From positions 1,368,900 to 1,432,899 of the forward strand of contig NZ_CP047593.1 of NCBI RefSeq assembly GCF_009905215.1: 64,000 nt of DNA. Reading direction: 5' to 3'. A program made the position numbers and the translations under genes. Below are positions 22,941 to 27,922 of this stretch, one piece after another. Positions within the stretch are counted from its first letter, which is position 1. The number at the start of each line of letters is the position of its first letter. This stretch comes from Tichowtungia aerotolerans. GTDB lineage: Bacteria > Verrucomicrobiota > Kiritimatiellia > Kiritimatiellales > Tichowtungiaceae. The notes beneath the pieces are model-generated. The model did no database searches, was not told where the DNA came from, and saw only the letters and a program-made list of their open reading frames with translations.

Positions 22941-23095
22941 TTTTCCATGTTTTCCCCCTTAATATGAGCATAGATGGAAAATTTCAGGGGTAGAGGTCAT
23001 ATGTGGAAAATAAAACCGCCGATTTTCCATTTTTACCCCTTTAATATAAACATAGATGGAAAATCTTTCCATTCCATAGGGGTGATATATGGAAA
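22941..23095. repeat. Two tandem copies of a TTTTCCAT...ATGGAAAA element
   Basis: Copy 1 spans 22941-23010 and copy 2 spans 23023-23095. Each reads TTTTCCAT, a C-rich run, TTAATAT, then CATAGATGGAAAAT, and ends with AGGGG, an AT step and ATATG(T)GGAAA. Each copy therefore contains two nested inverted pairs (TTTTCCAT/ATGGAAAA and CCCC/GGGG). The order is conserved but the spacers differ, which suggests folding RNA or a multi-site protein target. Confidence 0.65.
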
Positions 23096-23202
23096 CTTTT
23101 CCATCTAACCAACTGTTAGAAGGACCGACGGGGTTAAACCTCTGGTGGGGAACCAGTAATGATTGTTAAGGGGCGCACAAGTTGAGTAAAAGTTGTTTGA
23201 GT

Positions 23203-23263
23203 GGTAATCTTAAAATCCCGGCGGCATAACGGAGTTGATGGCGACCGGGATTTTAAGATTACC
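23203..23263. repeat. Perfect 19-bp inverted repeat
   Basis: GGTAATCTTAAAATCCCGG (23203-23221) and its exact complement (23245-23263) flank a 23-base centre. No U-run follows, so it is not a standard terminator. It precedes the first attC-like site. Confidence 0.8.
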
Positions 23264-23388
23264 GCAACGTTGAAAGGTACTAATTGAATTTTTTTGTGCG
23301 GGGCGACTGGAACAGCGTCACGTAGAAACTGTGCGATGCGGGGAAGCACACAATGGAGTCGAACTTGAAGCGCCCCCGTCGCTCCAAG

Positions 23389-23478
23389 TTCTAACAATGG
23401 CATGCAGCTGACCGGGTTGACATTGGATTGATTCAGGCGAAGCTGGCCGCCCGGCAGCTGATGCCTGTTACGTTGGGA
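23389..23478 (+). repeat. attC-like recombination site 1
   Basis: Starts TTCTAAC and ends GTTGGGA, matching the R''/R' pattern of integron attC sites. The arms TAACA-AT-GGCAT-G-CAGCTG-A-CCGGG and CCCGG-CAGCTG-ATGCC-TGTTA pair throughout except for extra bases on one arm, which is the extrahelical-base architecture of attC. The next gene starts 7 bp after the site, as in gene cassettes. Confidence 0.65.
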
Positions 23479-23485
23479 ACAGAAA

Positions 23486-23920
23486 ATGAAACACATAATC
23501 ATAGCGACAATTTTAGCTGTCTCAGGATGCACGCACGGTTCTGCCGAGAACATCTATAAGGACAAGTTTATAACAAAACCTGTTCGGATTATGGTTGAGG
23601 CGTTCCTGAATAATGACTTGTCAGCGTATCGTAATTCCATGGAGCCGCAGTACTTCGAGAGACGAAGTCAAAGCGATGTGAATATTGAGCTGGATGCAGG
23701 AGTACAAACATTTGACCAATGGTTTAAAGGTGCAAAGGTCAGCGATTTTATTTTTACTGTAGAGGATGTCAGGCTTCCTGCTAAACTGAAGCCAAGCTAT
23801 AAAGAGGTTTCATATGGGTTACGTGGCAAAGAAGCCAGACTTCGCTTGTTAGTTCATTTGGAGAACAATGAATGGAAAATAGCGGACCCTACGCATCCCC
23901 ACGAAGCTTACGAAAAATAA
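23486..23920 (+). CDS. Cassette-borne secreted protein, unknown function
   Basis: A 144-aa protein with a short signal peptide (MKHIIIATILAVSGCTHGSA, possibly a lipoprotein with cysteine 15). The body contains VRIMVEAFLNNDLSAYRNSM and ends VHLENNEWKIADPTHPHEAY, which resembles small NTF2-like periplasmic domains, but I cannot assign it. It begins immediately after an attC-like site and ends 8 bp before the group II intron boundary, the layout of a single integron cassette. Confidence 0.7.
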   Translation: MKHIIIATILAVSGCTHGSAENIYKDKFITKPVRIMVEAFLNNDLSAYRNSMEPQYFERRSQSDVNIELDAGVQTFDQWFKGAKVSDFIFTVEDVRLPAKLKPSYKEVSYGLRGKEARLRLLVHLENNEWKIADPTHPHEAYEK

Positions 23921-23965
23921 ATCCCCAAATCGGGTAAAGGGGAGTGTCTAGCTCCCCCTCCCCAC

Positions 23966-23997
23966 ACCACCGGACATGCGGGTCCGCATCCGGCGGT
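23966..23997 (-). ncRNA. Group II intron domain V
   Basis: On the minus strand, ACCGCCGGA pairs with TCCGGTGGT around an inner GCGGACCCGC hairpin, followed by the G-rich domain VI. The triad CGC in the stem, instead of AGC, is the mark of class C introns. Confidence 0.72.
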
Positions 23998-24074
23998 TCG
24001 AAAGGCATCGGCCGACTCTATTGAGCCGGATAATGTATCCGAGACCATTGTTCGTGAACCGCTCCCTTCGGTCA

Positions 24075-25706
24075 CTATTTCCTTCGGAAATTATCTTCGC
24101 TGCGCTTCGGGAGACTGATTAACCCTTGCTCGGCAAGCCAGTCGTTTCCCATACCCATATTGGTTGCCAGCGTGCGTGCCAGCTTCCAATACGCCTTGCG
24201 GCTGCTAACGACCATTTTGATCTGCCGAATATTAACGTTCAGCTTGAGCAGTTCGCGGAACCGCTTTGCAGGTCGCTTCCACATCTTCCAGTAGCACATC
24301 CGCACGCGGCGGCGTATCCATTGGTCGAGCAGTGGAATGGGTTGGTAGTATTCGCTGATACCGAAGTATCCGATCCAGCCGCGCATATACTGCCGCAGTT
24401 TCTTCAGTCGGTACGCCATCGAAACACCCCAGCTTCGGCCGGTGAGTTCCTTGATGCGCCGCTTGAACTCCTTTTCGGACTTTTGGCTCCATCGAATCCG
24501 TCCATGTTTGATCTGGAACCCGAGGAATGTGCATTCGTCCAGAGACGCGACTTTGCTTTTGGTCTCATTGACCGTCAGCTTCAGCCTGCGTTCCAGAAAG
24601 TTCCGAACATTGAAAAACACCCGCTCGCCCGCGCGTTGCGATTTCACCAAGATGATGAAGTCGTCGGCGTAGCGCACGAATTTGTGTCCCCGCCGTTCGA
24701 GTTCCTGATCGAGCTCGTCGAGCAGGATGTTTGCTAAGAGCGGAGAAAGGGGGCCGCCCTGCGGCACGCCCTGACGTGTTGGCTCCCAACGCCCGTCATG
24801 CATCACCTCCGCCGTTAGATATTTCCTGATCAGTCTCAACACGCCCTTGTCCTTCACCCGCTTTTCCACGCAGTGCATCAGCACGTCGTGGTTGACGGTG
24901 TCGAAAAACTTCGAGAGGTCGGCATCGACCGCAACCCGGTGTCCTGAGCGGAACAGCTTCTTCACCTGCCGCACCGCGTCGTGCGCGGATCGTCCGGGCC
25001 GAAAGCCGTAGCTCGATTCCGAAAAGTGCGGATCGAAGATCGGGGTCAACACCTGCGCAATCGCCTGTTGGATCAGGCGGTCGAGCACCGTCGGAATTCC
25101 CAGCGGGCGGCGCGTGCCGTCCGGCTTGGGAATCAGCACACGGCGCACCGGGCGCGGGCAGTATCTCCCGTTTTCCAAGGTTGAGCGAATCGCTTCCCAG
25201 TTCCGGCGGATAAACCCGGCCGCGTCAGAAATAGACATGCCGTCCACGCCCGCCGCGCCCTTGTTTGCCTTCACCCGCGCCCATGCTCGCTGCATGTTCT
25301 CACTGCAAAGAATCTGCTCCAGTAGTTCATCTTGCGGGCTCGCTTCGTCCGCTGTGCCGGATGCATCTTCTCCGCCGGACGGCATCATCGAAGGTTCCAG
25401 ATCACAGCGGGGGCTTGCCCGCTCCTTTCGTTCCGGCCTTCCCGACAGGTCATCGGTACTATGCCGTCTGCTGACTCCTGCCGCATCATCGCCGCCATTA
25501 CTGACGCCGACGCTCTCCGTTGCCGAAGCGCATGTGCCGCAGGTCTCCCCGGATAAGAACGCAAACTTCAACTGCACAACCGCCGCATTTACCGTAGAGG
25601 CACTGCCCCGGACTTCGGTTTGCTGGGCAACCTCATCCGCCTCCTCAGCCTTATATGCGATTTCTGTTCGTCGGCTCACAGTCTTGAACTCCATCTTCCT
25701 CCCCAC
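24075..25706 (-). CDS. Group II intron reverse transcriptase/maturase
   Basis: A 543-aa LtrA-type protein. Reverse-transcriptase blocks are clear: VRRVLIPKPDGTRRPLGIP, SSYGFRPGRSAHDAV, VDADLSKFFDTVNHDVL, RQGVPQGGPLSPLLANI and the catalytic RYADDFIIL. The maturase (GIIM) domain follows with MRGWIGYFGISEYYQP. No HNH endonuclease domain is visible, as in class C introns. The first 110 residues are an unusual low-similarity extension (many S, A, E), so the true start may be further inside. It splices and mobilises its host intron. Confidence 0.9.
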   Translation of the reverse strand: MGRKMEFKTVSRRTEIAYKAEEADEVAQQTEVRGSASTVNAAVVQLKFAFLSGETCGTCASATESVGVSNGGDDAAGVSRRHSTDDLSGRPERKERASPRCDLEPSMMPSGGEDASGTADEASPQDELLEQILCSENMQRAWARVKANKGAAGVDGMSISDAAGFIRRNWEAIRSTLENGRYCPRPVRRVLIPKPDGTRRPLGIPTVLDRLIQQAIAQVLTPIFDPHFSESSYGFRPGRSAHDAVRQVKKLFRSGHRVAVDADLSKFFDTVNHDVLMHCVEKRVKDKGVLRLIRKYLTAEVMHDGRWEPTRQGVPQGGPLSPLLANILLDELDQELERRGHKFVRYADDFIILVKSQRAGERVFFNVRNFLERRLKLTVNETKSKVASLDECTFLGFQIKHGRIRWSQKSEKEFKRRIKELTGRSWGVSMAYRLKKLRQYMRGWIGYFGISEYYQPIPLLDQWIRRRVRMCYWKMWKRPAKRFRELLKLNVNIRQIKMVVSSRKAYWKLARTLATNMGMGNDWLAEQGLISLPKRSEDNFRRK

Positions 25707-25843
25707 GACTCCTCACGAAGCCGCAGTTGATTTCGTCTAGCGCTTCAGCTATCGTCAAACTCCGTGAAAGAGATTAACAACAGCCGGGCTACGCGCAGGG
25801 GACTCGAACCCCGTCAGTCTACGCTCATGCCAGGCGTACCCAC

Positions 25844-25902
25844 TGCATTCACTCTATCGCAGGCTCCGCCCGCTCAGAGTGACGCGAAGCGTTACGCTGG
25901 GG
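25844..25902 (+). repeat. attC-like site 2 (right part, split by the intron)
   Basis: TGCATTCACTCT-ATCG and AGAGTGACGCGAAGC-GTTACGCTGGGG flank a GGCTCCGCCCGCTC centre; CACTCT pairs with AGAGTG. With the CCCCAA left at 23923-23928 the outer stem CCCCA/TGGGG is restored. The following gene starts 12 bp after the site. Confidence 0.6.
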
Positions 25903-25914
25903 TCAGCAAGAAAT

Positions 25915-26532
25915 ATGAGAATTGTTTTATTAGTGATAATCGCTCTGTTTAATTCAGGTTGCGCATCAATGATCGTGCATGAATATGGTCGTCAGATTGA
26001 ATTTAAGCGTGCATCTGGGATTGTCTGCTGGGAAAATGGAGACGTCGGCATCCAGGAACAAACAATAAACAGGTGCGATGGATTCATAACACGTGAGCCT
26101 AAAATCATTTCAACTCAGTACTGTTTATTAACAAAGAATGACCTCTCCATATTCAACAGAGAAACGAACAGCTCGGGACGTGTAATCATTTATTTATCAC
26201 CTGAGTTCTCAAAAAACTCTATTAACAACAATTCTGAGCGGGCAACGCAAACAGAACTAGCACTATCAAAAGACAGCTCACAAGAAGTAGCAGGAGTGAC
26301 GCTTGCAGAAAGAAACCTAACAAGACCTATACCATACCCCGACAAGAAATCAGATGTATCCATATCGTTCGAGAAAGCCAGAAGATACGGCAGAGTAAAA
26401 AAAAGAAGTATTGCCGGGAAAATTCAACATCCTATTTTATTTCTACCTGCTCTTGTTACGGATGTTGTTTTGACACCTGTTTATATTATAGCCGTTCCAG
26501 TAACCATAATAACGCAAATGGGTGATGTGTAA
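25915..26532 (+). CDS. Cassette-borne lipoprotein, unknown function
   Basis: A 205-aa protein with lipoprotein signal MRIVLLVIIALFNSGCASM (lipobox cysteine 16). A hydrophobic C-terminal segment (FLPALVTDVVLTPVYIIAVPVTII) resembles small lipoproteins with a terminal membrane hairpin of the YceK type. No enzymatic motif is visible. Codon use and AT content are unlike the core genes, consistent with transfer. It is bracketed by two attC-like sites. An ORF start at 25879 lies inside the attC, so 25915 is preferred. Confidence 0.7.
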   Translation: MRIVLLVIIALFNSGCASMIVHEYGRQIEFKRASGIVCWENGDVGIQEQTINRCDGFITREPKIISTQYCLLTKNDLSIFNRETNSSGRVIIYLSPEFSKNSINNNSERATQTELALSKDSSQEVAGVTLAERNLTRPIPYPDKKSDVSISFEKARRYGRVKKRSIAGKIQHPILFLPALVTDVVLTPVYIIAVPVTIITQMGDV

Positions 26533-26538
26533 AAATCA

Positions 26539-26602
26539 CCCCAACCATCGGCTTCACTCTATCGCCGCCTCCGGCGGCTCAGAGAGAGCCGGGACGTTCA
26601 GC
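26539..26602 (+). repeat. attC-like site 3
   Basis: CCCCAAC at the left and GTTCAGC at the right (AAC/GTT complementary). Inside, CGGCTTCACTCT pairs with AGAGAGAGCCGG and a GCCGCC-TCC-GGCGGC terminal hairpin caps the structure. It starts 7 bp after one gene and ends 16 bp before the next, as attC does. Confidence 0.6.
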
Positions 26603-27852: not shown

Positions 27853-27858
27853 AAAAAG

Positions 27859-27922
27859 GCTTAATCCGCGCGCATACGCTATCGAGGACTCCGCTCACTT
27901 AGAGTAACGTGAATCGTTGGCA
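27859..27922 (+). repeat. attC-like site 4 (degenerate)
   Basis: GCTTAAT at the left and GTTGGCA at the right, with arms CGCATACGCTA and TAGAGTAACGTG that pair imperfectly. The central TATCGAGGACTCCGCTCAC and AGAGTAACGTGAATCGTT resemble site 2 (TATCGCAGGCTCCGCCCGCTC, AGAGTGACGCGAAGCGTT). Confidence 0.5.

Follow-up and report, generated by a model that had tools for sequence, protein, structure and literature searches.

The window analysed here is a stretch of 64,000 nucleotides from the chromosome of Tichowtungia aerotolerans, whose genome is a single contig of 3.88 Mb. Within it lies an array of cassettes with attC-like sites, headed by a block that holds no open reading frame (ORF). The first coding cassette carries a lipoprotein-like ORF, and its attC is interrupted by a complete group IIC intron on the opposite strand; a second cassette and a diverged attC lie beyond. 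The features are collected in Table 1.

Table 1. Features of the intron and of the cassette array that hosts it, in window coordinates
Feature	Coordinates	Strand	Basis
ORF-less cassette-like block heading the array	23116..23472	+	alignment with integron 1
Cassette 1, R' core GTTGGGAA at its start	23473..23928	+	R'-R'' match of 7/8
Lipoprotein-like ORF of cassette 1	23486-23920	+	ORF list
Left part of interrupted attC: R'' CCCCAA, completed by the C at 25840	23923..23928	+	join, profile and R'-R'' comparison
First base of the 3' exon (IBS3), T on the intron strand	23928	-	junction reading
Complete group IIC (class C-attC) intron	23929..25839	-	Rfam; 5'-end profile; RF00029 and domain V profile for the 3' end
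Domain VI hairpin, predicted bulged A at 23935 (7 nt from the 3' end)	23931..23964	-	fold
Domain V hairpin, CGC triad	23966..23997	-	Rfam and sequence
RT/maturase ORF, 543 aa from GTG, YADD, no endonuclease domain	24075..25706	-	TIGR04416, Pfam-type domain matches
RNA signature of domains I-IV	25435..25722	-	RF02001 and RF01998
EBS1 loop GC-CCAG-CA on a 4-bp stem in domain I	25621..25628	-	alignment with EBS1 loops of relatives; stem from sequence
IBS1, GTGG on the intron strand, last 4 nt of the 5' exon	25840..25843	-	EBS1-IBS1 pairing
Right part of interrupted attC: spacer, L boxes, inner stem, next R' GCTGGGG	25840..25902	+	covariance model R1
Intact attC of cassette 2 (ORF 25879-26532)	26537..26598	+	alignment and covariance model
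Third, diverged attC	27855..27920	+	training member of covariance model

Domains and boundaries of the intron

The intron is 1911 nt long as corrected here and runs from 5' GTACGCC to 3' ACCCGAT. Three Rfam models match its RNA on the minus strand above their curated cut-offs, RF02001 (25558-25722, 122 bits), RF01998 (25435-25512, 64 bits) and RF00029 for domain V/VI (23929-23998, 46 bits). These signatures, together with an RT/maturase bearing YADD in domain IV, mark the element as a group II intron, and the hairpin upstream of a short IBS1, with an EBS1 of 4 nt, marks it as group IIC. Computed folding of domains V and VI gives a z of -3.62. The first-pass annotation of this DNA had proposed a group IIC intron with a CGC triad in domain V; the triad is there to be read, and the Rfam domains, the RT/maturase family and the class C clade described below agree with it. 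A second, different intron on locus L021 has AGC, not CGC, in its domain V.

To place the 5' end we gathered class C introns from GTDB species contigs, plasmid records and whole genomes, and built a profile from their first ~200 nt with the window intron excluded from training. The match of this profile in the window begins at 25839 (E 2e-24), 4 nt inside the end of the extent proposed at first, 23929-25843; at its other end, 23929, that extent stands. The alignment shows a GTACGCC start common to the window, L105, L106 and L109. We set the 5' end at 25839 because the start of the profile, the peak of EBS1-IBS1 pairing and the restored attC agree on it. At the corrected site the predicted ligated exons, written on the intron strand, would read GAATGCAGTGG up to the junction and TTGGGGATT from it.

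Guide pairing between EBS1 and IBS1

The EBS1 proper occupies 25623-25626 (CCAG) within its 8-nt loop. Over 39 introns, 139 of 156 positions are paired between EBS1 and the final four bases of the exon; L106 was omitted from this count as a second copy of L105, and L058 and L022, with no exon or no EBS1 column, were skipped. Shuffling the partners 20000 times gives a mean of 89.3 (sd 5.0) and never reaches 139, a significance that is overstated since related rows are not independent. None of the 12 other offsets between -6 and +6 gives a total above 94. The letters differ among introns while complementarity is kept, e.g. TGGT-ACCA, TGGA-TCCA, TTTA-TAAA, CTTT-AAAG and ACTA-TAGT.

In the window the exon at the corrected junction, GTGG, pairs with EBS1 at 3 of 4 positions, against 1 of 4 for the TGCA of the junction first proposed. 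L105 and L106, full-length relatives from the same order as the host (DNA 78% identical), have the EBS1 of the window intron and exons reading CTGG^TT, with all four pairs. A second copy in the host genome, L013, has the IBS1 ATGG (3/4), and the exon of L109, with one extra G (CTCTGGG^TT), pairs at 3/4 in the standard register and 4/4 one base earlier. L110 has EBS1 ACAA and exon TTGT. EBS1-IBS1 pairings of 3-4 bp are described for class C-attC introns (PMC7923331).

The interrupted attC site

An attC covariance model was built from six attC-like sites of the host genome. Among these sites four stem pairs are changed on both sides, a count that 3 of 500 shuffles reach, and genome-wide the model recovers 21 sites, with both sides of the array in the window among them. 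Scored with a model not trained on it, the right half of the interrupted attC reaches 52.9 bits (E 1.1e-13). This score and the position within R'' bear out the original claim of an insertion in the bottom strand of an attC. The intron is also confirmed to lie opposite in orientation to the cassettes, as expected for class C-attC introns.

Joining 23928 to 25840 gives the top strand CCCCAACCACTGCATTCACTC, equal in length to the intact neighbour CCCCAACCATCGGCTTCACTC, and regains CCCCAAC/AAC and the spacing. Removal of the intron thus restores a neighbour-like attC, as had been proposed, at this join; the join put forward originally is 4 nt short and lacks AAC. With a profile of host attC sites not trained on this one, the corrected join scores 55.0 bits, the earlier join 48.1 and the interrupted site 48.6. 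The corrected join gains nothing from the folding energy of the joined bottom strand, at -15.5 (z -1.78) compared with -16.0 (z -2.36) for the earlier join. The R' and R'' cores of the interrupted cassette match at 7 of 8 positions, a level with a computed expectation of about one occurrence per stretch searched. Splice junctions at different positions had been named as grounds for abandoning the first reading; taken literally such a difference was found, 4 nt at the 5' end, and the corrected junction strengthens the attC interpretation.

With the intron in place, R'' is cut off from the remainder of its attC, so that excision of the first coding cassette has probably become impossible at the intron end. 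A search of 331 other genomes with the cassette protein found no allele of this cassette free of the intron; it returned one distant homologue (41% identity), beside which no attC is visible.

Cut register and fit to the attC sites of the host

The 3' exon starts with TT, corresponding to a G^TT cut, in the window, L013, L105, L106 and L109. In the other attC introns with readable 3' exons it is a T followed by another base, with none of 12 starting TT, and the cut in R'' is GT^T. We compared 15 copies that were found by a domain VI pattern or were already in hand: ten have the TT start, and L092, L101, L107, L108 and L110 do not. Support for these registers comes from the R' cores of the cassettes, which match R'' at 8/8 for G^TT in L013, L106 and L109 and at 8/8 for GT^T in L039, L042 and L053; the remaining 14 of 20 loci examined give 7/8 or nothing.

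Among the 21 attC matches in the host, whose letters we read with the two interrupted sites completed from their left halves, 11 read AACCA (the TGG^TT form) and 4 read AACAA (the TTGTT form). Full pairing with CCAG, that is a CTGG exon, is possible in 5 of the 21, and both occupied sites pair at just 3/4. According to PMC7923331, the target of the majority of class C-attC introns is TTGT/T, which is a majority feature and not a strict condition of the class. The window has GTGG/T in its place, and L105 and L106 have CTGG/T. We file the window intron as a variant of class C-attC because the TTGT/T target is missing.

These observations make it likely, in our view, that a lineage of class C-attC introns within the Kiritimatiellales line has been retargeted to the attC sites of its hosts. 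CCAG would have replaced ACAA as EBS1, CTGG-like exons would have taken the place of TTGT, and the cut would have moved one base earlier to G^TT. G^TT would then be the point of the R'' core that corresponds to cassette joining, at which GTTNNNN is split after the G. If this is correct, a change in the attC family of the host was accompanied by changes in the guide RNA and the landing register.

The intron-encoded protein and its lineage

The ORF matches TIGR04416 at 427 bits (cut-off 300) and contains the domains RVT_1 and GIIM (RT and X). A domain search of the ORF found no endonuclease domain, i.e. the protein is En-minus. Comparison with relatives suggests that the maturase proper starts near the ATG at 25388. 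Against GsI-IIC RT, a class C enzyme of solved structure, the maturase scores 436 bits, and against the IIA enzyme LtrA 167 bits; its place in class C and its lack of an endonuclease domain both fit group IIC.

We placed the protein in a tree of 57 intron-encoded proteins (IEPs), with the frames of the relatives taken stop to stop. The tree excludes L032, the duplicates L021, L026, L074, L076 and L090, and rows without a long enough ORF, and its outgroup consists of three long-branch rows only. The window intron groups with L105, L106 and L111 (100/100). The clade around it holds 21 rows (100/99) and includes, on one side of the branch, all 14 rows labelled attC, the labels having been assigned by the author from the 5' exon. 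Classification of the maturase in such a phylogeny had been suggested as a check at the outset, and the protein falls within the attC clade of class C, not outside the class. The plasmid stretches around intron RT genes come from Citrobacter, Klebsiella, Escherichia and Methylocalor, and two of them carry drug-resistance cassettes. The relatives from the order of the host include Kiritimatiellales bacterium OB10, and a search of viral contigs gave no match.

A second copy and other integron features of the host genome

A second copy of the intron lies at 2.63 Mb (L013). It lacks the first ~1220 nt and is identical to the window intron over the shared 693 nt. This copy is opposite to a cassette gene and is flanked by GATGG in the upstream exon and TTCTGAA in the 3' exon. 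The right half of its attC scores 48.3 bits with the covariance model, and the other end of its cassette carries a matching core, TTCAGAAC (8/8). Within another attC, the copy occupies the position that the window intron holds in its own, and it offers indirect support for mobility into attC sites. The loss of the 5' part with the 3' end intact may be the trace of an unfinished reverse transcription. The copy is itself split by a gene for a Mutator-family (IS256-like) transposase (L013:8931-10372), with an 8-bp duplication; this transposase is also present in the array of L015.

A search of the window for integron integrases, with a curated cut-off, found no intI. Elsewhere in the genome three integron-integrase genes score above the cut-off, the nearest ~0.33 Mb away. 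L013:12233-13612 and L014:9353-10732 each encode an integron integrase of 459 aa. The two are near-identical, and the one from L013, which was scanned, has ~145 extra N-terminal residues with no Pfam match.

The block at the head of the window array is identical to L015:7289-7657, beside the intI of integron 1, ~0.33 Mb away, and it heads both arrays. It has an R'' of its own (TTCTAAC) and a 19-bp inverted repeat. We considered whether 23106-23474 is an attI copied from integron 1 and prefer an ORF-less cassette, because the block is bounded on both sides by core-like sites and includes that R''. Just upstream of the array, at 22941-23064, are two 42-bp direct repeats, 88% alike, with the motifs TTTTCCAT and ATGGAAAA.

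Discussion

We are confident that the element is a complete group IIC retroelement of the class C-attC lineage, lodged in the bottom strand of the attC of a chromosomal cassette, with a changed EBS1 and with its cut displaced by one nucleotide within R''. From this anatomy we infer how the window intron may splice, recognise its hairpin, reverse-splice, be copied and move. The intron RNA would be excised with the help of its En-minus RT/maturase and would recognise the bottom strand of an attC folded as a hairpin. Its EBS1, CCAG, would pair with the end of the 5' exon, whether CTGG, GTGG or ATGG, and the intron would reverse-splice at G^TT inside R'', after which the inserted RNA would be copied into DNA. 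The changed EBS1 and the displaced cut would suit the attC sites of the host (AACCA on the top strand).

Three other readings deserve to be weighed. One is that no integron is involved and that the intron lies at a transcription terminator or at an inverted repeat arisen by chance. This would fit the preference of class C introns for sites behind terminators, as PMC4424553 describes it, and the absence of intI from the window. The hairpin has no adjoining T-run, though, and the genome has three intI genes above the curated cut-off elsewhere. The attC model finds its 21 sites, on both sides of the array among others, and the stem pairs of the six training sites covary to a degree rarely equalled by shuffling. 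On the covariation and the model matches we reject this reading, which we regard as scarcely credible. It is also very unlikely, if slightly less so, that the intron is the same but is spliced at 25843, as first annotated. That start (GTGGG...) shares GTG, its first three letters, with GUGYG, the commonly quoted consensus start (PMC7923331), and the joined bottom strand folds slightly better there. Nevertheless the junction at 25843 leaves only one of four EBS1 positions paired, and a profile that has not seen the window puts the start at 25839, where L105, L106 and L109 align GTACGCC to GTACGCC. The resulting attC, without AAC and 4 nt of spacer, scores 48.1 against 55.0 bits, and by profile, pairing and attC score we reject this junction.

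A closer competitor, which we still think unlikely, is an ordinary class C-attC intron that cuts at GT^T, its apparent shift being due to a one-base slip in the assignment of the boundary or to a local mutation of the exon. The shift is, after all, a single nucleotide, and one-base variation exists, as L109 illustrates. Against this, the 3' end CCCGAT is common to the C-attC relatives, and the TT start, absent from all 12 attC-counted relatives, recurs in every one of the window, L013, L105, L106 and L109. The R'-R'' identities put GTT at exon position -1 in L013, L106 and L109 and at -2 in L039, L042 and L053, in each case with 8/8, and EBS1 itself is altered, CCAG against ACAA. We retain the reading of a retargeted class C-attC intron with a displaced cut.

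The choice of target by class C introns is usually ascribed to a hairpin and a short motif. In the introns compared here, lineages that share the attC context have different 4-nt guides and different cut registers. Because guide and register vary against a constant context, hairpin position and EBS1 pairing should be separable in tests. A natural change of guide of this kind may be useful for IIC targeting tools. The results also add the bacterial group of the host to those with integrons and active-looking C-attC introns; our literature search returned no paper on integron introns of this group or on the G^TT register, though published CTGG/TT targets may exist. A paper by Quiroga and Centron (2009) reportedly deals with the diversity of C-attC targets.

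Some observations on relatives are recorded here for completeness. L109:781-1540 is an intron of 760 nt with no ORF, which has the EBS1 loop of the window intron and is inserted in an attC-like site, in a genome of the same genus (G003). No IEP was found in G003, and the L109 intron is a candidate for help in trans. At L101:99-100 the 3' end of an intron is joined straight to an intron 5' end (CCCGAT followed by GTACGCC), which may reflect two copies inserted head to tail or an error in the assembly of a multicopy element. The 5'-truncated relatives on L021, L037 and L038 begin beside a recurring GACCCCTTT-like sequence that is not an obvious attC.

Comparison with known systems

The closest known systems are the ordinary class C-attC introns, e.g. 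the plasmid copies L039, in a class 1 integron, and L040, beside dfrA12. They share with the window intron the IEP clade, an En-minus RT with an X domain, the CGC triad, insertion in the bottom strand of R'' opposite to the cassettes, the GTACGCC start and the CCCGAT end. They differ from it in guide and register, with EBS1 ACAA and TTGT^T (GT^TRRRY) where the window intron has CCAG and TGG^TT (G^TTNNNN), and in their hosts, which are Proteobacteria and not the Kiritimatiellales line. The class C introns behind intrinsic terminators (L023, L024, L030, L054 and L055) are of the same RNA class, with the same domain V and the same recognition of a hairpin and a 4-nt IBS1. Unlike the window intron they mostly start with GTGCGCC, have a T-rich IBS1 and fall outside the attC clade. 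A further point of comparison is UHB.F1, an intron of a soda-lake metagenome that is of the same IIC-attC lineage and has a Verrucomicrobia RT as its best database match, as reported in PMC7923331. By that description, on which the likeness is drawn, UHB.F1 is 5'-truncated with a broken IEP, whereas the window intron is complete.
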